NCBI GenBank assembly: GCA_027492795.1
Contig: JAPUEB010000029.1
Span: 1-64,000, forward strand
DNA from: Chryseobacterium sp.
Lineage (GTDB): Bacteria > Bacteroidota > Bacteroidia > Flavobacteriales > Weeksellaceae
Direction: 5' to 3'
DNA length: 64,000 nt
Shown here: one piece after another, positions 11,027 to 23,407 of the stretch
Numbering within the stretch: the first letter of the stretch is position 1
Layout of the letters: each line of letters starts with the position of its first letter
The notes under the pieces: generated by a model
Seen by the model: the letters and a program-made list of their open reading frames with translations, nothing else
Database searches by the model: none
What the model was told of the DNA's origin: nothing
Program-made: the position numbers and the translations under genes

Positions 11027-11922
11027 CTACTTCAACCATACTTCGACTCGTCCTAAAGGAACTACATTATTCAGTTTAACTTTTTTGGCGATAAATGAAT
11101 ATGATTTAAAGCTATCATTTAGGTTTTTCACAACAGATTCTGCGAGTAGCTGATCTGAATCATTGAAATACCTGACCTCATTTTCATCTAAATTGTACGA
11201 TAATTTTTCGCTTCCCACCGCGACAAAGCCGATCCTATTTAGGTAAATTACCATTTCTTTTGCTGCTTTTCTATCTTCCTCTCTGCAAATTTGGAAGTAA
11301 ATAGGAAAAGTATTAAAAATAGCAGAAGCATGCTTCGCTTCCGAATTTTGTAACAATTGCTTGGTAGTTTCTATTGCCTGTTTGGTTGACTCCTTTTCCG
11401 TTGCAAGCACCGTTTGTTTAAGTTCAGCTTCTGCAATAGTTTTTGAGGCACTAATGATGCTATCGAACATTTCTTTATAATCACTTTTTGGAAGTGAATT
11501 ATTAAAGTCATATTCATTCAGGCGATAAAGTGCATCTCTAAGGAAATTGATGGATGTAGTTCGATTGGTTAATTTTTCCAATGTTTCTGCCAAAGTACTA
11601 CCTACACTTGCATCGATCTCTTTGAATGCTAAATTGCCGGCAAAAGTTTTTGCAAATGCTAAGGCGGCATCCGGAGGTGGTTCCGCTAAAATGCGAACAA
11701 ATTTTTTGATTTTGTTGAATTTTTTTCTGCTACTACTTCTTTTTCATGGATAATTAAAGCTCCTCTTTTAGTAGCATCAAAATCTGCATAATACAAAGCT
11801 TGCTTCTTCTCGTTGTCTAGCTGCGGTAGATGCTTAATGTTCATGGAGTGCTCCTTGAGAGTAGAGCAACTATTGAGAAACAGCAAAATACATAAAGGGT
11901 GTAATCGTTTTAGAAATTTCAT
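11027..11922 (-). pseudogene. lipoprotein gene split by a frameshift
   Basis: The minus strand starts at 11922 with a lipoprotein signal (MKFLKRLHPLCILLFLNSC, Cys19). This frame ends after 78 codons at 11686. The continuing coding sense is in the next frame (KKFVRILAEPPPDAALAFAK and on through MAETLEKLTN to 11027). Adding one base to the T7 run at 11720-11726 (A7 on the coding strand) joins both into one protein of roughly 297 residues. The 3' half is helical and Lys/Glu-rich, with a C-terminal part that resembles LytR_C-type wall-linked domains (YLNRIGFVAVGS ... ENEVRYFNDSDQLLAE). It may be a true pseudogene, a sequencing error in a homopolymer, or phase variation by slippage. It is the last gene of the operon. 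Confidence 0.75.
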
Positions 11923-11993
11923 GGTTATTATTTTTAAATATTACGTTTTATGATAAGAGTGACATGCTGCATTTGATCAACTTGTCATTAATA

Positions 11994-12677
11994 TCATTCA
12001 TCCAACACATACCAAGCTGAGCCAGCTTCATCCCCAACTCCACCCAATTCAAAATTATTCTTGAAGTAGGACATGGCTTTTCTGAAAACATTTTCGTTAT
12101 CATGTTTTGAAGTGTAAATTCCAACGCTACCATCTGAGTCGATGATTATTTTGAAGTTTTCAAAATCCAATGTATAGGCTTTTTCATTTAGACTATCATC
12201 TCCTTCCACAAAAACTAGTGTAGATGGTCCTTGTTTTTTGTAGGTGAAGCCTTGCTCTTCAAAAAATTTCTTCAAAACCATACGTTTATCATCGAAAGAA
12301 CCTTTTAGCACTGCATTTTTGAAATCTTGAGCTGAGACAGTAGCATTTCCACTCTTGGCATTTTCAGTACCGGATTTACCGCATTTTCCTGTTATGACTA
12401 CCTGTTCGATTTTTTTTGCTGATTTTGTAATATAAAGTTTGTCCGTGGAATTTGCAAAACCCCACGATGCAACACAGCCATTATCATTGATATCATTAAA
12501 TTGTTTTGTATAGGCCTCAATATCTTTACAGGATGATGCATTATTGGCAATCCTGATCAGATTGTTAACCATTTTTTCGCAGTCACTTGCCGAGTTTTGT
12601 GGATAGGGAATGGGAATGTTTTGTGCATTAAAAAATGCTGTTGCACTTAGCAAAATTGTTAATAAATAAATTTTCAT
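11994..12677 (-). CDS. secreted protein of unknown function
   Basis: A 227-residue protein with a signal peptide (MKIYLLTILLSATAFFNAQ) and several Cys residues in the mature part (SDCEKM, SSCKDI, NGCVAS, GKCGKSG), which suggests disulfide bonds in the periplasm or outside. The middle has alternating strands and helices; no catalytic motif is seen. The GKCGKS motif is similar to GNCGKS in the 360-residue product two genes upstream, a weak hint of shared ancestry or partnership. It lies 31 bp after the 495-residue gene and 71 bp before the frameshifted lipoprotein gene in one presumed operon. Confidence 0.75.
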   Translation of the reverse strand: MKIYLLTILLSATAFFNAQNIPIPYPQNSASDCEKMVNNLIRIANNASSCKDIEAYTKQFNDINDNGCVASWGFANSTDKLYITKSAKKIEQVVITGKCGKSGTENAKSGNATVSAQDFKNAVLKGSFDDKRMVLKKFFEEQGFTYKKQGPSTLVFVEGDDSLNEKAYTLDFENFKIIIDSDGSVGIYTSKHDNENVFRKAMSYFKNNFELGGVGDEAGSAWYVLDE

Positions 12678-12708
12678 TGGTAGGATAATTTGGAGTTAGA
12701 TGATTTTT

Positions 12709-14196
12709 TTATTTCCTTTTTAATGTTTCCAAAAACTGTAAGGTGGCTGCTGTTATTTCTTCTGCATTTTTTCTATTGCGTTCGTCGCGCTCGGCTTTTT
12801 TTTGTCTTGCAATTTCAGCTCTTCTTTCTTCTTCTTCTTTAGCTATTCTTTGCTTTTCTTCATAGTTACCTCTTTCAGCTAAGTATTTTTCCTTAACATA
12901 AAACTGTGTTCGGTTTACACCCGGCAAATCATCCAACCTAAAATCTTGAGTAACAAAATTTTCTGTAACTTCATTTACAATGGATTTTACAGCATTTTTA
13001 TCGTAGCTGTCCACTAAAAAAACGAACCCCCAATTGTTATTATAAGATGACTGATCTCCAAAGTAATAACAGGCCTTGCTCGCGTCATTTTTTTGGCAAA
13101 AATTGGTTTCAGACTTAGAATTCGTAAAACTGCCGTCTTTATCAAATGTTTTTCTAGAATAATAAAAATCTTCTAAATATTTTACTCTTGCGTTATTATC
13201 ATTAAAATCATTATATATTTTTACCAGTTCATCGAAAGTTATTGGTTTAGAATAATTCAATAGTGCTTCACTACCTCTTGGTGGTACAGGTGTTATTTCT
13301 AAATAGTCTGGTTCTAATTTTAGCATGACATCATTTTTTCTAAAGTATTCTACTCCATTTCTATCAGTATATCTCTTTTCCCAGCTTTTAATATCCAGCA
13401 AAGACTTTATATTTGCCATTTGCAAAGGATTTGCGGAAACACTTATTGTTTTACGCATTTTTTGTGCGCTTACAATTGCATTAATGTTGTTTTTAAAAAT
13501 TAATTCTTGCTTCTTCTCTATATATTCGTATTTACTATTATTCAAAACATCTTTTGATTTTGCACCAATGTATGGATATTTTTGCTTTAGGAGATTAACA
13601 ATGCCACTTGCAGCATCTTCAAAATTAGTTGTTGTACTTAAGTCGTTTATTGAAAAATTTTGAATCACAGCATTATCTTTTTTTGTAATAAGAAGATAAT
13701 ATGACGTTTCATAATCTGTATCAAGGATTGCCAAAGAATTTTGATTCTCGAAAATTGATTTGTCTCCTAATTTTTCTATCAGCTTTAAGCCATTTGTTTT
13801 AAAGAGTTTTTCCAAATTCTCAATATATCCTGAAACTATTTCTATTTGTACTATTTTATCTTCTAAAGTTGTTAGATTGATTTTGCTATTTTCACTGTCT
13901 AAATAGAGATAAATGTTTTTGTAGTCGATTTCTTCTTTTTTTTTATAGTTTTCATCGTATTGGTAGGTGATATCTTCTACTACTTTTTGAACACTTATAT
14001 TGTTGTTAGTAAGCATTGTTTCTAATGCTGAGTTGGCTTCATCTATTGAAACTCCTAATAGTGTGAGAAAGCCTGAAGGTGTAACAGTTACAGATTTGTT
14101 AGGAGATGGTTTGCTGGTAATAACTTTTTTCTTTGTTTGTGCAGCTGTAAGTGAAAACACTACAATTAGGACTAGGGTTAAGATTTTATATTTCAT
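12709..14196 (-). CDS. large secreted protein with C-terminal helical tail, unknown
   Basis: A 495-residue protein with a signal peptide (MKYKILTLVLIVVFSLTAAQ). A short N-terminal region (SGFLTLLGVSIDEANSALETML) precedes two long alpha/beta regions and a strongly charged, Glu/Arg/Lys-rich helix at about 435-480 that could form a coiled coil. No known domain is recognised and no catalytic motif stands out. Base composition is AT-richer than the neighbouring glnS. It is the fifth gene of the presumed operon, 17 bp from the upstream gene. Confidence 0.75.
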   Translation of the reverse strand: MKYKILTLVLIVVFSLTAAQTKKKVITSKPSPNKSVTVTPSGFLTLLGVSIDEANSALETMLTNNNISVQKVVEDITYQYDENYKKKEEIDYKNIYLYLDSENSKINLTTLEDKIVQIEIVSGYIENLEKLFKTNGLKLIEKLGDKSIFENQNSLAILDTDYETSYYLLITKKDNAVIQNFSINDLSTTTNFEDAASGIVNLLKQKYPYIGAKSKDVLNNSKYEYIEKKQELIFKNNINAIVSAQKMRKTISVSANPLQMANIKSLLDIKSWEKRYTDRNGVEYFRKNDVMLKLEPDYLEITPVPPRGSEALLNYSKPITFDELVKIYNDFNDNNARVKYLEDFYYSRKTFDKDGSFTNSKSETNFCQKNDASKACYYFGDQSSYNNNWGFVFLVDSYDKNAVKSIVNEVTENFVTQDFRLDDLPGVNRTQFYVKEKYLAERGNYEEKQRIAKEEEERRAEIARQKKAERDERNRKNAEEITAATLQFLETLKRK

Positions 14197-14213
14197 GATT
14201 TTATTTTTTTAGT

Positions 14214-15296
14214 TTAATAAATCGAAATACTGTATTCATCAAATATCTTTTTGATCTCTTCTAATTTTGCCTTGTTTTTAACACTTATTCTTACATCCCC
14301 AACAAGTTCAGTACATGTGAGTTTACTTGTACCGCCCATTTCTTTCTGATAGCAAGATTTTGAAACGGAAATATCAAAATCTGTAGTTGAATAAATTTTA
14401 GTAATCTGCCATCTATCATTAATATCTCTAGTTGTAAATGAATAGCCTTGTTGAACTAGTGAAGTTAATATTTCATTAGCGATATAATTATTGTAAGATT
14501 GCCAATTCTCATTGAAGCCCGGTTTTACCCAAATTTTTTTGTTTTCTGATTTTTTACTTTTAGTCGCTGTATTTTCATTTGATTTTCCGCAATTTCCTGC
14601 AGAAGGTATATTTGGAGTACCATTATCACAGGTTGCAAAACATAATTTATCAGATGCTCCTGTACCGCATTGATTATGATACCAAATATCCTCTTTAGGA
14701 ACGCTTAAATCTTGTGGAAAACAAACAGATCTTATTTCTACATTTAAGCTAACTTCGTTAGAATCAGAAAACCCTGAATGAAATTCGTCTAATGTACTAG
14801 ATGCTTTTTTCGGAAATAATTTTAGATTCTTTCCATTATTGCTTGCATTTCCAACGGGATCATTAATCCCATTTCCAACTACAAATGCTCTAAAAGATAC
14901 AGGTCTGTTGTATTCATTTTTAAAAAAAACGGTGGTTTCGTACTTCCCGCTATAAATACTGCGATTTGGTTTTACAATAGCTTTAAAGTAAATTCCTTGA
15001 AAACAATTGCTGGCTTTTATCCAACCTGTTTCTCTAACTCCATTTGCTTTAAGAACAGTTTTTACTGTGTTTTTAGAATTTGTAGTTCCAGTGGATTTTT
15101 GACTATTTGCAGGTTTTGATTTCTTCATACTTGCGTTCAGAGCTTCCCTTTGTGAGATGATGCGTTTGTTTTTTTCTGCATCCATTGGTATCACTAGGTC
15201 TTCATGCCTATTAGTAGACACTGTTTTTTTATAATCTTGCGCTTTGCCAATTCCTATAGCGAGCAAATACATTGTGATGATAATTATTTTTTTCAT
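14214..15296 (-). CDS. secreted Cys-containing protein of unknown function
   Basis: A 360-residue protein with a signal peptide (MKKIIIITMYLLAIGIGKAQ). A Ser/Lys/Asn-rich linker (about 55-85) precedes a strand-rich domain with IYFKAIVKPNRSIYSGKYETTVFFKNEYNRPVSFRAFVVG, which looks like an immunoglobulin-like or jelly-roll fold, then a Cys cluster (QCGTGASDKLCFATC, GNCGKS). The last 100 residues form a separate alpha/beta unit. The mosaic suggests a surface or periplasmic binding protein. I do not recognise a family. Gaps to neighbours are 17 and 19 bp. Confidence 0.75.
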   Translation of the reverse strand: MKKIIIITMYLLAIGIGKAQDYKKTVSTNRHEDLVIPMDAEKNKRIISQREALNASMKKSKPANSQKSTGTTNSKNTVKTVLKANGVRETGWIKASNCFQGIYFKAIVKPNRSIYSGKYETTVFFKNEYNRPVSFRAFVVGNGINDPVGNASNNGKNLKLFPKKASSTLDEFHSGFSDSNEVSLNVEIRSVCFPQDLSVPKEDIWYHNQCGTGASDKLCFATCDNGTPNIPSAGNCGKSNENTATKSKKSENKKIWVKPGFNENWQSYNNYIANEILTSLVQQGYSFTTRDINDRWQITKIYSTTDFDISVSKSCYQKEMGGTSKLTCTELVGDVRISVKNKAKLEEIKKIFDEYSISIY

Positions 15297-15315
15297 TGTT
15301 TAATTTTTTATCCTA

Positions 15316-15735
15316 TTATTTTTTAAAAAATGTTAACACTAACTCTTCATCTACTATTTTAGTATCGAAAACAATATTCTTAGTATTGCTTTTTTGGAGT
15401 TGCGATAGATTTTTTATTAGTGTTTTATCTTTAGTGGTCACGATAATTTCTTTAAGAACTTTATTTTCATCACACTCAAAAGTTAAGAAGGATTCATGTA
15501 CGCTACTCCCTACGTAACATTTGTTTGAGCATTGTTTCAAATCATCAATTCCGATATTTTTAAAGTTTTCTAAAATTGTTTGCTCAGTAAAATCATCTAT
15601 GGATTTATTTATTGATTCTTCCAAATGAGAAATTAGAACATTGTAATTCTCTTGGAGGGTTCTAGTGTTTTGTGCTAATACCGCATGAGAGAATAATAGA
15701 AATGTCAACAAGATTAAATTTTTGATTTTTTTCAT
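15316..15735 (-). CDS. small secreted protein, unknown
   Basis: A 139-residue protein with a signal peptide (MKKIKNLILLTFLLFSHAVLAQ, cleaved near residue 22). Two Cys residues lie close together (LKQCSNKCYVGSS) and a third follows (LTFECDEN). The mature part is one small alpha/beta domain. It lies 11 bp after the wall-hydrolase gene, where immunity or accessory proteins of hydrolases are often found; that role is only a guess from position. Confidence 0.7.
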   Translation of the reverse strand: MKKIKNLILLTFLLFSHAVLAQNTRTLQENYNVLISHLEESINKSIDDFTEQTILENFKNIGIDDLKQCSNKCYVGSSVHESFLTFECDENKVLKEIIVTTKDKTLIKNLSQLQKSNTKNIVFDTKIVDEELVLTFFKK

Positions 15736-15746
15736 AAACTAATTAT

Positions 15747-17291
15747 TTAAATGGTATTAATATCTATTTCTTTTCCGTTGATTTTTCCCTTGCCTAAGGA
15801 AATGGTAAGTTTTCTGGATAGAGTAACTAATTTGAATTGCGGTCGGCTTAGCTTTGCTCTTAGAAAACTTAAAATTGATAGATTGGTGTTAATTTCATCT
15901 TTATGAATAGTATTCCAAATAATAACATTATCTGGCACAGAACTTTTCCATAGTGTTTTTATATCTTCACCACTTTCTGTTACTTTAATTGGGTAATCTT
16001 CTGCCCATTTAAATATGTGTTGAAAAATTTCAGTAGTATTATTAAAATCTGAGGAAAAATTTGCAACATCTTTATAAGTAAGTCCTTTTAAACTTCCATT
16101 TAGTGTAAGCAAATCAAAAAACCAACAAAATTCTTGTAGGGTACAAAATGGAGATTGCCGAGAATCTAATGCCCATTTCTTTGCCATAGCTTTTGCTGCT
16201 ACAGCTTTAGACTTTACTTTTGCAAGTTGATAATTTTTACTTTCTTCAATGTTGAGTAGTGCTTGTAACTCTAATTTTACAGCTTTTTTAACATCTTTTT
16301 TAGTGCTATTTCTATCTATAAAATTTTCATTGACGATTTCCAAGCCCCTTTTTACACTACTATTGCAAATTTCCCAAAGTAATTCTCCATAGTTCGGCAT
16401 TTTTTCTAAAACAACTTCTTTCGTTAAATACTTTATGAGTGGTTGCAAAGAGTTACTTCCAATATTCCACTGCAAAACACCGCAAGAAATACCATGTCCG
16501 TCAAAATTTCCCGTTACTGCTATGAAAGGATTAGTAGATGAAGTTTCAAAGAAACTAATCATGGAAAGTGCTTTTTTTACCCATGCTTCATCTACAAAAT
16601 CGTAGTTTTCGTTCAATGCATTAAAGGTATCTTTACCAGCAACTCCATCAACCGATAAATTTTTTGATTTTTGAAATCTCTCAACGGCATCTTTTGTTAT
16701 TTTACCAAAAATTCCGTCAATAATATCAGTATAAAAGCCTATGTTTTTTAGTGCTTGTTGCAACTTTACCACCTCGGTATTTCTATCTCCATATTCTAAA
16801 GTTTGGTTAATCTCTAAATCATAATTATTAAAATCTGTATCAATGGCAGATAATAATTCTAAATTCTTAATCCTCCTAATTCCCAAAAGTAATTCCAATG
16901 GATATGATTTTAAACTCACAGAATCATCCTGATTTCCACCCAAGAGAATAATTTCTGTTGGTGTGTGAGAATGGTAAAATCCAACATGTCCATATTCTGT
17001 ATTTTCTGGATCAGCAGGACTTTTTAGAATCACCACGTCATAACCTACAATTGCTTCAGATAAAACCACGGAATTTCCGACTTTAAGCCAAGACCGAGCC
17101 ATTAGAGAATTGCTCTGTAAAGCACCTGTCTGTTTGGCAATAAAATTTACAAAAGCAGAACACCATGGAGTTTCGTCATGTTTAACATTGCTGTCAATTG
17201 ATTTCAGCATTTGGATAATTTTTTCGTTATCCAAAACACCTTTTACTTCTTTTTCTCCCAAATAAGTTTGGGCAATTTCAAATGCGTTCAT
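15747..17291 (-). CDS. three-domain peptidoglycan hydrolase-like protein
   Basis: A 514-residue protein with three regions. Residues 1-145 resemble the TIGR02594/CHAP-like cysteine amidases: a Cys in ETPWCSAFVNFIAK (about 43) and a His in EYGHVGFYHS (about 100) would be the catalytic pair. Residues about 160-230 are a PG_binding_1 domain (LEYGDRNTEVVKLQQALKNIGFYTDIIDGIFGKITKDAVERFQ). Residues about 235-514 form a lysozyme- or chitosanase-like domain with SFFETSSTNPFIAVTGNFDGHGISCGVLQWNIG, where Glu and Asp could act as catalytic acids. There is no signal peptide, unlike all its neighbours, so export needs a dedicated route, or lysis, or it acts inside. It lies 6 bp after the coiled-coil gene. 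Confidence 0.78.
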   Translation of the reverse strand: MNAFEIAQTYLGEKEVKGVLDNEKIIQMLKSIDSNVKHDETPWCSAFVNFIAKQTGALQSNSLMARSWLKVGNSVVLSEAIVGYDVVILKSPADPENTEYGHVGFYHSHTPTEIILLGGNQDDSVSLKSYPLELLLGIRRIKNLELLSAIDTDFNNYDLEINQTLEYGDRNTEVVKLQQALKNIGFYTDIIDGIFGKITKDAVERFQKSKNLSVDGVAGKDTFNALNENYDFVDEAWVKKALSMISFFETSSTNPFIAVTGNFDGHGISCGVLQWNIGSNSLQPLIKYLTKEVVLEKMPNYGELLWEICNSSVKRGLEIVNENFIDRNSTKKDVKKAVKLELQALLNIEESKNYQLAKVKSKAVAAKAMAKKWALDSRQSPFCTLQEFCWFFDLLTLNGSLKGLTYKDVANFSSDFNNTTEIFQHIFKWAEDYPIKVTESGEDIKTLWKSSVPDNVIIWNTIHKDEINTNLSILSFLRAKLSRPQFKLVTLSRKLTISLGKGKINGKEIDINTI

Positions 17292-17297
17292 ATTTTA

Positions 17298-18971
17298 TTA
17301 TTGTGATATTTTTATTAATCCTTTTTGTTTGCTCGTTAGATTGTATGAAAGTCCTACAAAAAATCCTACTTTAAAGTTTTCTGTTGTTAAATCTTTTTGT
17401 GTGGTATTAGTATCAACTAGTGTATTTTCATTATATATAGATTTTAAATCAGATACTTTTCTGAAAGAAGGTCCAATTGTGAGGATAACTTTATCTCTTT
17501 TACCAATTAGTAGGCTAGGACCAATAAACACCGATTCTATACTAAATTTGGCTACATCTAAAGATGCTCCTAACGAAATTCCTCCGGCAAAATTTCCATT
17601 TTCACGAAAACTTGCGTGGAATAAACCTGCCAATGTTGGGTAAAACTTGTTTTTACTAATTTCCTTTGGCTTGTTATTATATATTTCGTATAATTTGTCT
17701 TTTGCGCCAAAGTCGAAAACGGTTCCGATGCTAAAATCGAAGCGAATGCCACCTTTTAAATATTCAAAATATTTGAAATTTTTGTTTTTTTCTGTAAGAT
17801 AGGAGTCCGCTAATCTATTTTTGCCTTCGATTGCAATACTAAACTCTATAAAATCTTCTATTCCTTGTATTGGTACAGAACTGATGGTGTATGTGTTTTC
17901 ATTTGATAATTCTCGATCTATGATTTCTAATTGATTGAGTTTTTTGCTTAAATTGATTGCTTGTACCAATTTGTCAACTTCTAAAATAGCTTTATTCATT
18001 CTATCATATTCAGAGGTTATGAGTGTCGACAGTATCTCTTTTTCTTTATCCAAATTTTTCAGTTGATGTATGAAGTTTCTATTTTGAACATTGTTAAACT
18101 CATCTAAAAAATTTTGATAATTATTTTTAAATACTTTCACTACTCCATAAGCATATTTTAAGTTTTTTTTATTCAAAAGGAATGATGTTTCAATTGAATC
18201 ACTATCAACTCTTGAATCTTTTTTAAGTTTAAGGTATGTTTGATGATCTAAGTCTGGCCTGTTAATTTTGTCAATGTAATTATTAAAATTTTGATTGAGC
18301 TTTATTATTTCTCTAGCATTTGATATTACCATTCGATAATATTTATTAAGATCATTCAAATTGTTAAAAACTTCTTTTTCAAGAATTTTTTTAGTTTTAG
18401 AATTAGCAATCAAACGATTTATTTGAATTTGTTTTTCCAACCTTTTGTTGTTTAGACTATCAATTATATTTTGTAATGAATCTACTTTAGCACTGTCTTT
18501 CTTGTCTATGAGCTCAAGTTTTAAAGATTCTTTTTGGTATTTTTGTTTGATTATTTCCAATTCTAACCTCAAATCTTCATATTTTTTTTGATTGCTATCT
18601 TGAACAACTTTTTCATTTTCTTTATTACTGAAAAAATTATTTATTAATATATTTTCATTAATTGCCTCAATAGATTTTAAAGTTGGATTTAATACAGGTG
18701 AAATATCACCGGAAACTTTTTGCAATTCTGTGTGTTCAATGTTTTCATAGGAAATATATTTGTCTTGAGCCTCAATTCTTACAGTAAAAAAAAGTGGGTT
18801 AATGTTTTTAATCTTTAAAATGGTCGGAATTTTTTGTTTTAAGTTTAGATTAGCGTTATCAAATTTTCCATCTTTAAAATCGTAAATTATAACTTGGTTT
18901 ATTGCATCTTTTTGGCCGAATACCAAATATTGCATTAGAATAAATATAGTTGTGTGTAGTTTTGTTTTCAT
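17298..18971 (-). CDS. coiled-coil protein with C-terminal outer-membrane-like domain
   Basis: A 557-residue protein. The start at 18971 is chosen because a signal peptide follows directly (MKTKLHTTIFILMQYLVFGQ); an upstream start would hide it. After a small strand-rich part, residues about 120-370 are a long Lys/Glu/Leu/Asn-rich coiled-coil region. The last 170 residues show alternating amphipathic strands and glycine-rich turns (GGISLGASLDVAKFSIESVFIGPSLLIG ... KVGFFVGLSYNL) ending near the C-terminus, like a small outer-membrane beta barrel. First gene of the minus operon, divergent from the response regulator. It could anchor the secreted partners to the outer membrane. Confidence 0.78.
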   Translation of the reverse strand: MKTKLHTTIFILMQYLVFGQKDAINQVIIYDFKDGKFDNANLNLKQKIPTILKIKNINPLFFTVRIEAQDKYISYENIEHTELQKVSGDISPVLNPTLKSIEAINENILINNFFSNKENEKVVQDSNQKKYEDLRLELEIIKQKYQKESLKLELIDKKDSAKVDSLQNIIDSLNNKRLEKQIQINRLIANSKTKKILEKEVFNNLNDLNKYYRMVISNAREIIKLNQNFNNYIDKINRPDLDHQTYLKLKKDSRVDSDSIETSFLLNKKNLKYAYGVVKVFKNNYQNFLDEFNNVQNRNFIHQLKNLDKEKEILSTLITSEYDRMNKAILEVDKLVQAINLSKKLNQLEIIDRELSNENTYTISSVPIQGIEDFIEFSIAIEGKNRLADSYLTEKNKNFKYFEYLKGGIRFDFSIGTVFDFGAKDKLYEIYNNKPKEISKNKFYPTLAGLFHASFRENGNFAGGISLGASLDVAKFSIESVFIGPSLLIGKRDKVILTIGPSFRKVSDLKSIYNENTLVDTNTTQKDLTTENFKVGFFVGLSYNLTSKQKGLIKISQ

Positions 18972-19022
18972 GGTTATTTTTTCCACAAATCTCCCCCAAA
19001 AACCAATACCAAACAATTACAC

Positions 19023-19149
19023 AAAAGGGTGATATTTCATTAAACAGACGTTTAGTAAAATATTTTTCGCGGCAATTGAAATTTTAATTAATTTTATAAA
19101 AACTAAATTCTAAAAAACCCAAACTCGAAAAATCACCCGAAAGGGTAAT
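19023..19149. promoter_or_regulatory. candidate operator sites between divergent operons
   Basis: AAAAGGGTGAT at 19023-19033 and ATCACCCGAAAGGGTAAT at 19132-19149 share the GGGTGAT/ATCACCC core in opposite directions. They stand in the 226-bp region between the divergent 557-residue gene and the response regulator gene. Paired inverted sites of this kind suit a dimeric LuxR-type regulator, but binding is inferred. Confidence 0.4.
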
Positions 19150-19197
19150 TGACCACCTCTGTTTTTTCGCTGAAATTTGTTTTGAAAAACTGAAAAT

Positions 19198-19827
19198 ATG
19201 CCCATAAAAGTTGCCATAGTAGAAGATGACCGACATTATAACAATGCTTTGAAAAAAATTATTGATTATGATGCAGATTTACTATGCGTAGGTCAGTTTT
19301 TTGAAGGTGGTGAAGCTCTTAAAAAACTACATTCCATCGAACCCGATGTGGTTTTGATGGACATAAAACTTCCCAATTTTCTGGGAACAGAAATTGTTTC
19401 ACAATTGAGCACCGATATGGAAAATACCCAATTCATTATGTGTACCAGTTTTGAGGATGACGAGAACATCTTCAAATCACTTAAAGCCGGTGCTGCAGGT
19501 TATTTAGTGAAAGGCGACAGTATGGAGAAAATAATCGCATCCGTAAAAGAAGTGTACAACGGTGGCGCTCCTATGAGTTTTTCGGTGGCAAAAAAAGTGC
19601 TGCAATATTTCAAAAACGAAAAGAAAAATTTTGAACTGAATTCCCTTACCGTTACCGAACGGGAAGTATTGGAAATGCTTGCACAAGGACTTCTTTATAA
19701 AGAAATAGCCGATAAAAAATGCGTGAGTTTGGATACGGTAAAAAAACACATCGGCCACATTTATCGCAAACTTCAGGTAAACAATAAAATAGAAGCTATA
19801 AATATGTTTAACAAAAATAAAAATTAG
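19198..19827 (+). CDS. NarL/LuxR-type response regulator
   Basis: A 209-residue DNA-binding response regulator. The receiver domain (1-120) has the acidic pair in VAIVEDD, the phosphorylation Asp in VVLMDIKLPNFLG (about residue 56), Thr/Ser in MCTSFED and Lys in YLVKGDS. The output domain (about 145-205) is a LuxR-type HTH (LTVTEREVLEMLAQGLLYKEIADKKCVSLDTVKKHIGHIYRKL). It opens the plus operon that ends with its likely partner kinase 2.8 kb downstream, and it faces the divergent secreted-protein operon, which it probably controls. Confidence 0.93.
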   Translation: MPIKVAIVEDDRHYNNALKKIIDYDADLLCVGQFFEGGEALKKLHSIEPDVVLMDIKLPNFLGTEIVSQLSTDMENTQFIMCTSFEDDENIFKSLKAGAAGYLVKGDSMEKIIASVKEVYNGGAPMSFSVAKKVLQYFKNEKKNFELNSLTVTEREVLEMLAQGLLYKEIADKKCVSLDTVKKHIGHIYRKLQVNNKIEAINMFNKNKN

Positions 19828-19832
19828 AAATT

Positions 19833-20486
19833 ATGGAAACAAAAAAATTAGAAGAAATCTTAAATTTGATTGATGAAAGCCATCATCAAAAATTAATTAC
19901 GAAAGAAGATTTAATCAGTATTGCCAATTATTCTATTAACATTTACCAGTTAAAAGTTGATATCAAAAGTTTCAACGCAATTTTATTGGATCATACTTTA
20001 TCTCCTGGTGAAATAACTAAAATAGAATCATTAGAAATTATAAATAAATTCGATAGCGAACCCGCACTAATGCCTTATATCACAAAGCAAGAAATTTCAA
20101 AAAACACTATCATAGATTATCACAGCAGAAGACAAAATTTACCCATATATTTTGGAGATAATGATGGGAGGTTGATGTTACAGATAGGTTCAGACGACGG
20201 AAGCTTTGCTACAAGTCCTATAAAAACAGTTTTTGATAATTATTGTAGAACTCATAATCCAAATAATCGTCCTTCGCCAAACAGAATTATCATATCTTAC
20301 GCAGAAGATATCGTCCCAATTATGAACCTTTATCAAAATTATCCAGATATGATTTGTGAATTAAGAACCGGTATTAATATTTCTGGGAAAAATGATTTTG
20401 ACGGCCGTACTACTGTAGTTCTAAATTGTATAGCAAATGGAAGTATCATTAAAAGTTATGATACATTTCAATTATCTCCACCATAA
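19833..20486 (+). CDS. unknown protein in two-component operon
   Basis: A 217-residue protein without signal peptide or membrane helix. The N-terminal third is helical and Lys/Glu-rich; the rest is mixed with many Asn, Asp and Pro residues (HNPNNRPSPNRIIISYAEDIVPIMNLYQNYPDM). I do not recognise a domain. It starts 5 bp after the response regulator stop, so it is certainly in the same transcript and may be translated with it. Presumably a cytoplasmic or secreted accessory protein of the system; no function is assigned. Confidence 0.75.
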   Translation: METKKLEEILNLIDESHHQKLITKEDLISIANYSINIYQLKVDIKSFNAILLDHTLSPGEITKIESLEIINKFDSEPALMPYITKQEISKNTIIDYHSRRQNLPIYFGDNDGRLMLQIGSDDGSFATSPIKTVFDNYCRTHNPNNRPSPNRIIISYAEDIVPIMNLYQNYPDMICELRTGINISGKNDFDGRTTVVLNCIANGSIIKSYDTFQLSPP

Positions 20487-20535
20487 AAAATATTTCTAGT
20501 CATCACTAATATAATAACTTCAAAACATAATAACC

Positions 20536-20904
20536 ATGAAAACATTTTACAGAAAATTTCCAAAAGACTTGGGTGACTACATTACTCTTGAAATTGAAAT
20601 TAGTACAGAAGCTTCAATTGTTACTACACTAAAATATTGTGACAAAGAAATAAATTATAGTAATAAAGATAGGAAAATTAGCATCAATATTCCCAAAAAT
20701 TGTAATGAAATAGAAATTAAATTAATAGCCGACTTTCTACTGATAGATGACCTACAGAAAAATGGTAGTATAAGAAATACATTGATAATAACGAAAATAG
20801 GCAATAACAGAAAAAGTAAACACTTACCTTTTATTAACAAAGATAAAAGTGATTTGGTAGATGACAAAATAAAAAGTGAAGTAATTAAAATAAAATTGCA
20901 ATGA
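20536..20904 (+). CDS. small unknown protein in two-component operon
   Basis: A 122-residue protein, strand-rich in the first half (ITLEIEISTEASIVTTLKYCDKEI) and very Lys-rich at the end. No signal peptide. Its stop overlaps the next start by 4 bp (ATGA), which indicates translational coupling to the outer-membrane protein gene. The strand pattern could be a small beta sandwich. No family is recognised. Confidence 0.7.
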   Translation: MKTFYRKFPKDLGDYITLEIEISTEASIVTTLKYCDKEINYSNKDRKISINIPKNCNEIEIKLIADFLLIDDLQKNGSIRNTLIITKIGNNRKSKHLPFINKDKSDLVDDKIKSEVIKIKLQ

Positions 20905-21968
20905 AAAATTACAAAATAGTTGTAACTGTATTTTTATTAATTTCTGGCGGGCTAAAATCTCAAAACTCAATGCTACCAGAAATTACATCTGCTCCGTCCG
21001 TGATGATTTTGGAACTCTCACCCTCCGATTTAAATGTTGCAAACAACAAATCTTCAATTGTTTTTAGCTTAGTTAACTCATTCAAAGAAAATGGTGGATT
21101 GCCAAACAACTATGCTTTAGAAATCACTCCCTATTGGACTTATCCTTGGAAAAACAGAACTTATTTCAATTTTATTGGAATTAATGAAAAAACTGAAAAA
21201 CAATTTTTTTTTTCTGGATTGAAGATGACATCACTTTCAATGTCATTTAAAAAAAATCTTGAAATAAATAACTTTGAAAACAGTAATAATATTGCTGTTT
21301 CTTACGGTTTTAGGTCTAACATTTTCAAAATTGAAAGTCAAAAAAAAATTGAAATTTTTGCTAAATGTAGTAATGAATTAGATGAGTTAAACTTAAAATT
21401 AAAGGATAAAAAAATAGAAGAAAAAGTTTACAATGAAAAAAGAAATGAAATAAAATTGGCAAATAATGCTGCCAAAAAAATCGATCCCTTATTCAGTGTC
21501 GACTTAGCCTCTGCATACAGCATCGTTTTCTTAAATAATAAATTTCAGGAAAGGCAATTTGGCAAATACGGTTTGTGGATTACCATGAATAGTGGTTTTT
21601 ATTTGAATAAAGATATTTCAGCGGACAAAAGGGGAAAAGTAAATTTCTACGCCATTGGCAGATATCTAAAAGATGGTACAATTTACAATCCTGATAGCGG
21701 TTTTAGTAAAACTGAAAACTATGATATCGGAGGAAAAATAGAATTAGTTTATGATAAATTTTCAATTGGTTACGAATATGTACACCGCATCAATCCTATA
21801 GAAAACACTCACCGCTCCAACGGTATCATCAATTATGAAGTAATGCCCAATGTTGTCATCAACGCTGCTTTTGGCAGAAACTATGGCAACAAAGACAACA
21901 TTATCTCATTTTTAGGACTCAATTGGGGATTAGATAATGTTAAAAAAAGTTTGTTTGATGAAAAATAA
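20901..21968 (+). CDS. putative outer-membrane protein, unknown family
   Basis: A 355-residue protein with a signal peptide (MKNYKIVVTVFLLISGGLKSQ). The mature part has many alternating strands with aromatic ends and polar turns (ISADKRGKVNFYAIGRYLKDG, YDIGGKIELVYDKFSIGYEYVHRI, NVVINAAFGRNYGNKDNIISFLGLNWGL), as in beta-barrel outer-membrane proteins. A short Lys/Glu-rich helical insertion lies at about 148-195. Start overlaps the upstream gene by 4 bp. In context it may be the outer-membrane partner of the secreted proteins of the divergent operon. Confidence 0.75.
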   Translation: MKNYKIVVTVFLLISGGLKSQNSMLPEITSAPSVMILELSPSDLNVANNKSSIVFSLVNSFKENGGLPNNYALEITPYWTYPWKNRTYFNFIGINEKTEKQFFFSGLKMTSLSMSFKKNLEINNFENSNNIAVSYGFRSNIFKIESQKKIEIFAKCSNELDELNLKLKDKKIEEKVYNEKRNEIKLANNAAKKIDPLFSVDLASAYSIVFLNNKFQERQFGKYGLWITMNSGFYLNKDISADKRGKVNFYAIGRYLKDGTIYNPDSGFSKTENYDIGGKIELVYDKFSIGYEYVHRINPIENTHRSNGIINYEVMPNVVINAAFGRNYGNKDNIISFLGLNWGLDNVKKSLFDEK

Positions 21969-21979
21969 TTAACAAGAAA

Positions 21980-22582
21980 ATGACTCCTTATCAACATTAC
22001 AGCTACATTGTTCTTGTAGGAATTTGTTTCATGTTTTCCCTCGTTTACAGGACAAAAAAAAAATCGGTGCTGTTCATCTATTTAGGAACCGTGATGCTGG
22101 TTGAGTTAGTTTCTGTGCTGAAAATTATAGATAACAACATTCTTCATTCCTACTCAACTTTAATTTATATTTTGTTTTTCACCTATTATTTTTCCAAAAT
22201 TTCAAAAAAATTTGTTCCCATATTTTATGTTTTAGGAGGCATAGCTTTTCTGTCAACAGCGATGATAAAATTGACCTACAACACAGTATTTCCTATTGAA
22301 ATGGGCATAATCCTTAGCAGTTTTTATATCCTCTCCTCAATATTATACTTCTATGAAAGTGTCAATATTAACCAAGCAGGATTTATAACAGATAAAGAAT
22401 CATTTTGGGTAAGCTTCGCTATATTGTTTTGGAGCATATTCTTCATATTTAGAGTAGTTCCTATGTATGGTTTAGCCAAAAAAGACATCGAATTTCTAAA
22501 ACAAATTCAGATGGTTTATAAAATTGCTGTTTTCTGTACATACATTCTATTTGCGGCAGCTTCAACAAGAAAAAGAATATAA
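21980..22582 (+). CDS. seven-helix membrane protein next to a histidine kinase
   Basis: A 200-residue integral membrane protein with about seven hydrophobic helices (around 8-25, 32-52, 58-72, 77-97, 104-124, 136-156, 168-188) and very short loops; no enzyme motif. It lies 11 bp after the outer-membrane protein gene and 6 bp before the kinase gene. The kinase has only one helix and no sensor domain, so this protein is a good candidate for the sensing unit, by inference from context. Confidence 0.75.
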   Translation: MTPYQHYSYIVLVGICFMFSLVYRTKKKSVLFIYLGTVMLVELVSVLKIIDNNILHSYSTLIYILFFTYYFSKISKKFVPIFYVLGGIAFLSTAMIKLTYNTVFPIEMGIILSSFYILSSILYFYESVNINQAGFITDKESFWVSFAILFWSIFFIFRVVPMYGLAKKDIEFLKQIQMVYKIAVFCTYILFAAASTRKRI

Positions 22583-22588
22583 AAAAAT

Positions 22589-23407
22589 ATGCAGAGTTTA
22601 CCCGATGATATTAAATTAACCTATTATGTTGCCATCTTTATTATGGTGATTTTAGTATTCTTTATCATTTTGATAGTTGTATTTTACAACCGCAAACAAA
22701 CTCTCTTCATTAAAGAAAAACAACTCGCAGAATCCGAACATCAGAAGCAAATTCTTCAAAATGAATTAGAAAAACAAAAACTCATTGTGCAAGAAAGGGA
22801 ACGCATTTCCCACGATATGCACGACGATTTGGGCGCAGGAATTTCTGCAATGAAACTGCAGGCAGAATTTTTAAAACAAAAAATAAAAGACGAAACCGTT
22901 CTTGAAGATATTGACGATCTTTTGAAAACCTCTGAAGAAATGAATATCAGCATGCGCGAAATGCTTTGGAGCCTTAATTCACAAAACGACACCATCGGGA
23001 ATTTAATAAAATACGCATCCTCTTACGCAGAAAATTTTTTCAGAAAGACTGCTGTGAAGGTTAAAATAAATGAAGAAAATATTTGTAGTGATCAAGCTAT
23101 TTCCGCAGAACAAAGGAGAAATATCTTTCTCTGCATCAAAGAGGCGCTGAATAATGTTTACAAGCACAGCGAAGCATCCTTAACCGAAGTTTTTTTTGAA
23201 CAGGAAAATAGTATTTTACATATCACTGTGAAAGATAACGGCAAAGGAATTGGTGCTGATGTTGAAAAAGGAAACGGAATGAATAATATGCAATTTAGAA
23301 TGCGTGAAATTGGCGGAACTTTTACCAAAGAGGTTTCTTCGTTTGGAACCTTACTTCACTTTAGTATTGACCTGCAAAATCGCAGCAGAATGTCGTCCAG
23401 ATTATAA
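22589..23407 (+). CDS. sensor histidine kinase, NarL/DegS type
   Basis: A 272-residue kinase: one N-terminal transmembrane helix (about 11-31), a short coiled coil, then a HisKA_3 dimerisation domain with the phosphorylated His in RERISHDMHDDLGAGISAMKL (about residue 73-76) and a HATPase domain with the N box (KEALNNVYKHSEA) and G boxes (VKDNGKGIG, GNGMNNMQFRMREIGG). This class partners with LuxR-type response regulators, and one opens the same operon. There is no extracellular sensor domain, so signal input likely comes from the upstream seven-helix protein. Confidence 0.92.
   Translation: MQSLPDDIKLTYYVAIFIMVILVFFIILIVVFYNRKQTLFIKEKQLAESEHQKQILQNELEKQKLIVQERERISHDMHDDLGAGISAMKLQAEFLKQKIKDETVLEDIDDLLKTSEEMNISMREMLWSLNSQNDTIGNLIKYASSYAENFFRKTAVKVKINEENICSDQAISAEQRRNIFLCIKEALNNVYKHSEASLTEVFFEQENSILHITVKDNGKGIGADVEKGNGMNNMQFRMREIGGTFTKEVSSFGTLLHFSIDLQNRSRMSSRL

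Follow-up and report, generated by a model that had tools for sequence, protein, structure and literature searches.

What do two divergent, tightly packed operons, one with a response regulator and a histidine kinase and the other with a wall hydrolase among exported proteins, do together in a Chryseobacterium genome? The DNA analysed, referred to here as the window, is a stretch of 64,000 nt from Chryseobacterium sp. (GCA_027492795.1, contig JAPUEB010000029.1, positions 1 to 64,000). A sequence-only reading of the window had proposed one system under two-component control, and had offered an export or release machine for the hydrolase, a lysis device or a toxin system as candidate functions. 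The features of the locus are as follows.

11027..11922, minus strand: A, cargo family 3 lipoprotein gene that is interrupted by a frameshift near 11700
11994..12677, minus strand: B, exported protein with a Sec-type signal peptide and no family
12709..14196, minus strand: C, exported protein (Sec-type), with one full-length distant and one partial relative in 246 genomes
14214..15296, minus strand: D, exported protein with a Sec-type signal peptide and one partial relative in 246 genomes
15316..15735, minus strand: E, small exported protein with a Sec-type N-terminus and no family
15747..17291, minus strand: F, wall hydrolase without a signal peptide (TIGR02594, PG_binding_1 and a phage-lysin-like C-terminal region)
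17298..18971, minus strand: G, exported protein with a long middle region, a conserved C-terminal region and a putative outer-membrane barrel, whose relatives are cargo elsewhere
18986..18989, minus strand: -7 TTTG of the G-operon promoter, 24 nt past the operator
19014..19033, minus strand: operator of the G-operon promoter, ATCACCCTTTTGTGTAATTG
19132..19151, plus strand: operator of the RR promoter, ATCACCCGAAAGGGTAATTG
19176..19179, plus strand: -7 TTTG of the RR promoter, 24 nt past the operator
19198..19827, plus strand: RR, LuxR/NarL-type response regulator (Response_reg, E 6e-21; GerE, E 7e-16)
19833..20486, plus strand: X, hypervariable protein, predicted to be cytosolic in the window, with the C-terminal tail SYDTFQLSPP; its position and tail motif are kept in 80 loci (best 80 of 111)
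20536..20904, plus strand: J, small cargo protein without a signal peptide, related to cargo family 7
20901..21968, plus strand: K, exported outer-membrane beta-barrel cargo by its model, 41-43% identical to cargo of five loci
21980..22582, plus strand: TM, hypervariable polytopic membrane protein and putative sensor subunit, with relatives in the same position at 80 loci (best 80 of 111) and in Flavobacterium
22589..23407, plus strand: HK, HisKA_3 histidine kinase by domain search, with a single N-terminal membrane helix

All genes named in the sequence-only reading are present where it had placed them, and its LuxR-type regulator and kinase are borne out by the Response_reg and GerE domains of RR and the HisKA_3 domain of HK. 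The gene between RR and J (19833-20486) is X, a core part of the system. TM is indeed polytopic, but the seven helices assigned to it are an approximate number. Among the proteins described as exported and without a family, B, C, D, E and G carry Sec-type signal peptides in a simple hydrophobicity check, but the call for A (11027-11593) covered only the 3' part of a lipoprotein gene that extends to 11922. The frameshift near 11700 in this gene sits in a homopolymer-rich stretch and could be decay or a sequencing error. The exported gene G is also present, but it probably begins with the ATG at 18971 instead of the TTG at 19016 that was assigned earlier. Profile searches (Pfam, NCBIfam, PHROGs) revealed no family above chance for X, B, C, D, E, G, J or K. 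The tight spacing holds, with intergenic gaps of 6-31 bp between the minus-strand genes, which run G, F, E, D, C, B, A from the shared upstream region, and of -4 to 49 bp between the plus-strand genes. The G+C content of the cluster (0.285-0.32) is lower than that of most of the remaining window (mostly 0.33-0.40).

A scan of 84,980 species genomes with two kinases yielded 111 relatives, and the best 80 of 111, nearly all from Chryseobacterium, were kept. RR, TM and HK are recognisable in 79-80 of these best 80 loci, and comparison of the loci shows a constant gene order with a fourth gene, X, between RR and TM. The expected co-occurrence of at least five genes was found in part: RR, X, TM and HK recur in about 80 loci, whereas K (J in few), G and A recur only in subsets. 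The window RR is 58-67% identical to the RRs of related loci and the window HK 53-62% identical to the HKs of the best 80 of 111; BLAST matched the window X weakly (26-31%) to those of L050 and L124. One relative of G adjoins an RR and an HK that share 58% and 56% identity with their window counterparts. The chromosomal position of the locus is constant: in Chryseobacterium it is flanked by rplQ and eno, and in Cloacibacterium L097, Kaistella L124 and the window by the gene for glutaminyl-tRNA synthetase on one side and a menC-like gene on the other (all names by sequence recognition). TM was also found in Flavobacterium-like genomes of another family (the genus name is inferred), where the loci are again RR-X-TM-HK, with RR 64-67% identical and a diverged core sequence. 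No description of the RR-X-TM-HK system was found in the open-licence papers searched, preprints aside. The PhoPR-type system of Riemerella (PMC5399024) was rejected as a match, as its regulator is apparently of a different type.

Some loci depart from this arrangement. Upstream of its full system, Kaistella L124 has an additional TM-HK pair without a regulator of its own (L124:4511-5922). In a distant version from another genus of the Flavobacterium-like family (L228:6213-9704), two small proteins ending in GGRPPVDLE and GGLPPKDLN are followed by TM, HK and RR, with no operator. At L207:5501-6288 only the operator and a truncated RR are left, and X, TM and HK are gone between RR and eno.

A palindromic operator with the consensus ATYACMCnnnnGKGTRATTG lies upstream of RR in about 70 of the best 80 of 111 loci. 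Where cargo is present, a second copy separates HK from the first cargo gene in 54 of 61 loci; where cargo is absent (19 loci), no second copy was found. TTTG, the -7 promoter motif of Bacteroidota (PMC2483708), stands exactly 24 nt past the operator in 64/68 RR promoters and 40/43 cargo promoters (shuffle maxima 5 and 3). Because this distance is fixed, the operator end seems to replace the -33 element. The 64-kb window holds just two operators, at the RR promoter and the G-operon promoter; both fit the geometry, and they are the shared upstream inverted sites noticed earlier, now seen to match the operator of about 70 related loci. A similar arrangement of paired divergent operators, 84-102 bp apart, is present in five genomes of the Flavobacterium-like genus. 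Together with the comparison of the core, the operator strongly supports one system under two-component control with shared inverted sites, as the sequence-only reading had proposed.

The 2.96-Mb genome of the window contains only four exact operator sites, two of them in the window, and a reversed-pattern control gave 0. One unlinked site, with TTTG at +24, precedes the gene for an 865-residue fn3-like protein (L135:8528-11198) that ends in Por_Secre_tail (type IX secretion). The other (L136:8420-13126) precedes a plus-strand operon that starts with an outer-membrane-like protein and continues with a 156-aa membrane protein and acetyltransferase-like, ATP-grasp-like, beta-lactamase-fold and trypsin-like pieces; the trypsin-like gene seems split. 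Across 197 Weeksellaceae genomes, the kinase (E <= 1e-50) was found in 69 and the operator in 50. HK is present in 46 of the 50 operator-bearing genomes, and a 47th (G153) keeps a truncated RR remnant. Conversely, 23 of the 69 HK genomes have no exact operator match, and some of these represent a diverged kinase group. In Chryseobacterium L197, L198 and L199, an unlinked operator near gapA precedes the gene for a 135-aa protein, and the same gapA-side spot is the site of lone G-like genes in L017 and L018.

The core genes differ greatly in conservation. Median pairwise identities across the best 80 of 111 loci are.97 for rplQ,.94 for eno,.84 for RR,.70 for HK,.29 for TM and.15 for X. TM and X distances correlate with each other (rho.42), and neither X (.03) nor TM (.01) distances track eno. 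With one genome per species, 115 of the 140 locus pairs whose enolases are at least 98.5% identical carry different X classes. In L058/L080, DNA identity is.91-.98 in RR, drops to.35-.59 in X and TM, is.54 over the first 90 nt of HK and returns to.81-.96 thereafter. Considering L060/L095 as well, the close pairs have.91-.98 in RR, about.35-.60 across X, TM and the initial 90 nt of HK, and about.8-.98 in the kinase core. The cassette border therefore lies within the first ~90 nt of HK, that is, in its membrane helix, and in keeping with this border the N-terminal part of the kinase fails to track eno (rho.09), unlike the kinase core (.42). As judged from these identities, X, TM and the start of HK undergo allelic replacement within a conserved frame.

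The X proteins are 194-330 residues long and end in one of two tail types. Type I is YDxGxLxP-like (e.g., YYDxGxLxP at the extreme C-terminus), and type II has endings such as CPPGC, CPQQCP or PP. Within each of the two main TM classes, every locus has the matching tail type (45/45 and 32/32; 77/77 in all), as do 4/4 Flavobacterium-like loci, which lie outside the set that defined the classes. Since X and TM are adjacent, joint movement could yield this match without contact, so direct contact between X and TM is what we infer from their pairing. Within the same class, some loci have an X predicted to be a lipoprotein and others an X without a signal peptide, although the tails are near-identical; a single binding face does not easily explain this. 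The AF2 model of the window X has a pLDDT of 82, and a fold search with it gave no match in PDB or BFVD.

Cargo is present at 61 of the best 80 of 111 loci, and 19 have no linked cargo. Within these best 80, the recurrent cargo includes a protein of 107-129 residues that has two hydrophobic stretches (26 loci), barrels like K (18), lipoproteins like A (9), proteins like G (4) and a trypsin-like protease (3), along with J-related small beta proteins and other exported proteins. K is 41-43% identical to cargo of L058, L066, L088, L095 and L119. Its model is an outer-membrane barrel, in line with its earlier description as a putative outer-membrane protein, and the best PDB matches are EstA, the VhGalP/NanC porins and FapF. 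J matches cargo family 7 (E 8e-5, z 6.4), members of which precede K-like genes at other loci. Relatives of G are cargo in L059, L069, L085 and L121 and, through the L059 member, in Flavobacterium L222 and L224. G relatives are scattered in the family (9/197 genomes), some of them outside the RR-X-TM-HK system. G was rejected as a marker of the system, being found also alone near gapA and beside a caspase-like gene. The latter G homologue (L014:5905-10996) adjoins a caspase-like peptidase (Peptidase_C14) and a LytTR regulator, and no RR-X-TM-HK genes were found in the stretch examined. C and D are nearly unique, with one or two distant relatives each among 246 genomes in order-wide searches, and the surroundings of the C relative (L229) and of the D relative (L246) hold no RR-X-TM-HK-type system.

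We consider it probable that the locus acts as a two-component switch whose sensor cassette can be swapped and which governs envelope genes. Sequence evidence for the circuit is strong and shows directly the order of the genes, the geometry of operator and promoter, the replacement of the cassette and the pairing of X with TM. TM and HK would form a split membrane sensor kinase, and X, through its C-terminal tail, would be the partner or signal carrier that TM reads. Once active, HK would phosphorylate RR. RR would then bind at its own promoter, where the palindrome overlaps the -33 element, and raise expression of RR-X-(cargo)-TM-HK. RR would also bind the second operator copy ahead of the cargo operon, and outer-membrane, exported and wall-acting proteins would be produced as a species-specific set. 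In this reading phosphate would pass from HK to RR, and RR would activate rather than repress. The cargo of this genome would be J-K and the divergent G-F-E-D-C-B-A operon, with the same operator on two unlinked operons. RR and the kinase core would stay in place, and recombination would replace the cargo as well as X-TM together with the beginning of HK.

The variability of X and TM may also be read as a pherotype or kin recognition system, in which like cells use TM-HK to read an X, or X tail, that is released or displayed, and the cargo acts as intercellular surface effectors. This ComQXPA-like reading, drawn by analogy, is possible but on balance unlikely. The pattern is that of ComX/ComP/ComA, since ComQXPA of Bacillus has a hypervariable signal gene and sensor membrane region beside a conserved HisKA_3 (PF07730) core and a LuxR-type regulator (PMC4008528). 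Close species mostly differ in class as well (the 115/140 pairs above), in a comparison that covers one genome per species. However, X is a folded protein, often without an export signal, no processing enzyme was found, and the tail of X is conserved within a class rather than being its most variable part. We would hold only doubtfully to a pherotype-like self/non-self system in a Gram-negative Bacteroidota, where the X tail is read by its cognate swappable membrane subunit and recognition of like induces a swappable surface and wall-acting set. To our knowledge, peptide-pheromone-like systems are hardly known in this phylum.

In pattern, ComQXPA is the closest precedent, with several specificity classes in close relatives and a membrane sensor that varies while the kinase core it is coupled to is conserved. 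Unlike in ComQXPA, however, the membrane sensor TM is a separate gene, X ends in a YDxGxLxP- or CPP-type tail and is no short Trp-containing ComX, the host is Gram-negative, and swappable envelope cargo stands under the same operator. A ComQ isoprenyl transferase gene is neither present in the window locus nor recurrent in the best 80 of 111 loci. Because two defining ComQXPA genes are absent, RR-X-TM-HK is not a member of that family.

The agr system (AgrBDCA) of staphylococci also resembles RR-X-TM-HK, having a variable signal and sensor part in a conserved frame and autoregulated divergent promoters. However, AgrA is a LytTR regulator and AgrC belongs to another kinase family, both different from RR and HK, and the RR-X-TM-HK system has neither an AgrB protease nor an AgrD peptide. 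NarL/LuxR-type systems with HisKA_3 kinases (DesKR, DegSU type) share the families of RR and HK. A Response_reg plus GerE regulator and a HisKA_3 kinase indeed stand in the same locus, adjacent in 80 loci (best 80 of 111), and phosphotransfer from HK to RR and DNA binding by RR are predicted, with an operator that is conserved and co-occurs with HK. Unlike the DesKR/DegSU type, the system has separate hypervariable TM and X, a fixed site with variable cargo and an operator over the -33 element.

A response to envelope stress or damage, in which X-TM senses a changing insult (phage, toxin or antibiotic), the cargo repairs or remodels the wall and outer membrane, and the variability reflects an arms race, is likewise a tentative alternative that we think improbable. 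The cargo does comprise wall enzymes and a protease besides envelope proteins. In 11 of the best 80 of 111 loci an Amidase_2 gene without a signal peptide is found upstream of RR, and such wall amidases bear an operator-like site (<=2 mismatches) in a few genomes (3/10 tested vs ~0.7% expected by chance). However, no known stress sensor domains were found, the cargo is wholly different between close species, and the PADLOC models matched the core only through GerE-type, receiver-type or chance matches, with nothing pointing to defence.

The wall hydrolase F was central to the functions proposed earlier. Its domains (TIGR02594, E 9e-25; PG_binding_1, E 2e-18) and its lack of a signal peptide agree with that description. 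Full-length F is absent from 199 relatives. In other Bacteroidota, a phylum-wide search turned up its C-terminal half in rare lysin-like proteins that bind PG. Phages gave weak matches, and a scan of viral contigs gave nothing for the C-terminal part. From this comparison F is taken to be optional, non-conserved cargo. An export, release or lysis machine for F, similar to holin-endolysin or type 10 secretion, is thus very unlikely. It would account for a signal-less wall hydrolase among the cargo, with phage-lysin-like PG-binding and C-terminal parts, and for the signal-less Amidase_2 and small 2-helix membrane protein at other loci. However, hydrolases like F are not a conserved part of the system, the window proteins scanned gave no match to a holin or spanin family, and 19 of the best 80 of 111 loci have no cargo at all; a conserved holin, spanin or hydrolase, as in the known systems, is missing. 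Amidase_2 and the small membrane protein were also rejected as a fixed lysis pair, because they occur together in only 4 loci, against totals of 11 and 26 loci, respectively. An interbacterial toxin-immunity cluster, with F as a delivered wall-degrading effector and E (or D) as its exported immunity protein, is a still fainter prospect, for although a small exported protein directly follows the signal-less hydrolase and F has a weak PDB match to a chain of 4nso named 'Effector protein', the locus has no secretion apparatus or delivery domain, and E is not conserved and has no relatives that could show pairing. The export, lysis and toxin proposals therefore lack support, F, B, C, D and E being non-conserved cargo.

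The proposed two-component switch with a swappable sensor cassette is common in Chryseobacterium, occurs in some Flavobacterium and is apparently undescribed, as far as the papers searched show. The operator followed by 24 nt and TTTG would be a readable regulatory code that predicts targets in any genome. Because sensor and output modules are swapped around a constant kinase and regulator, signal specificity and the purpose of this diversity may be tested by cassette exchange.
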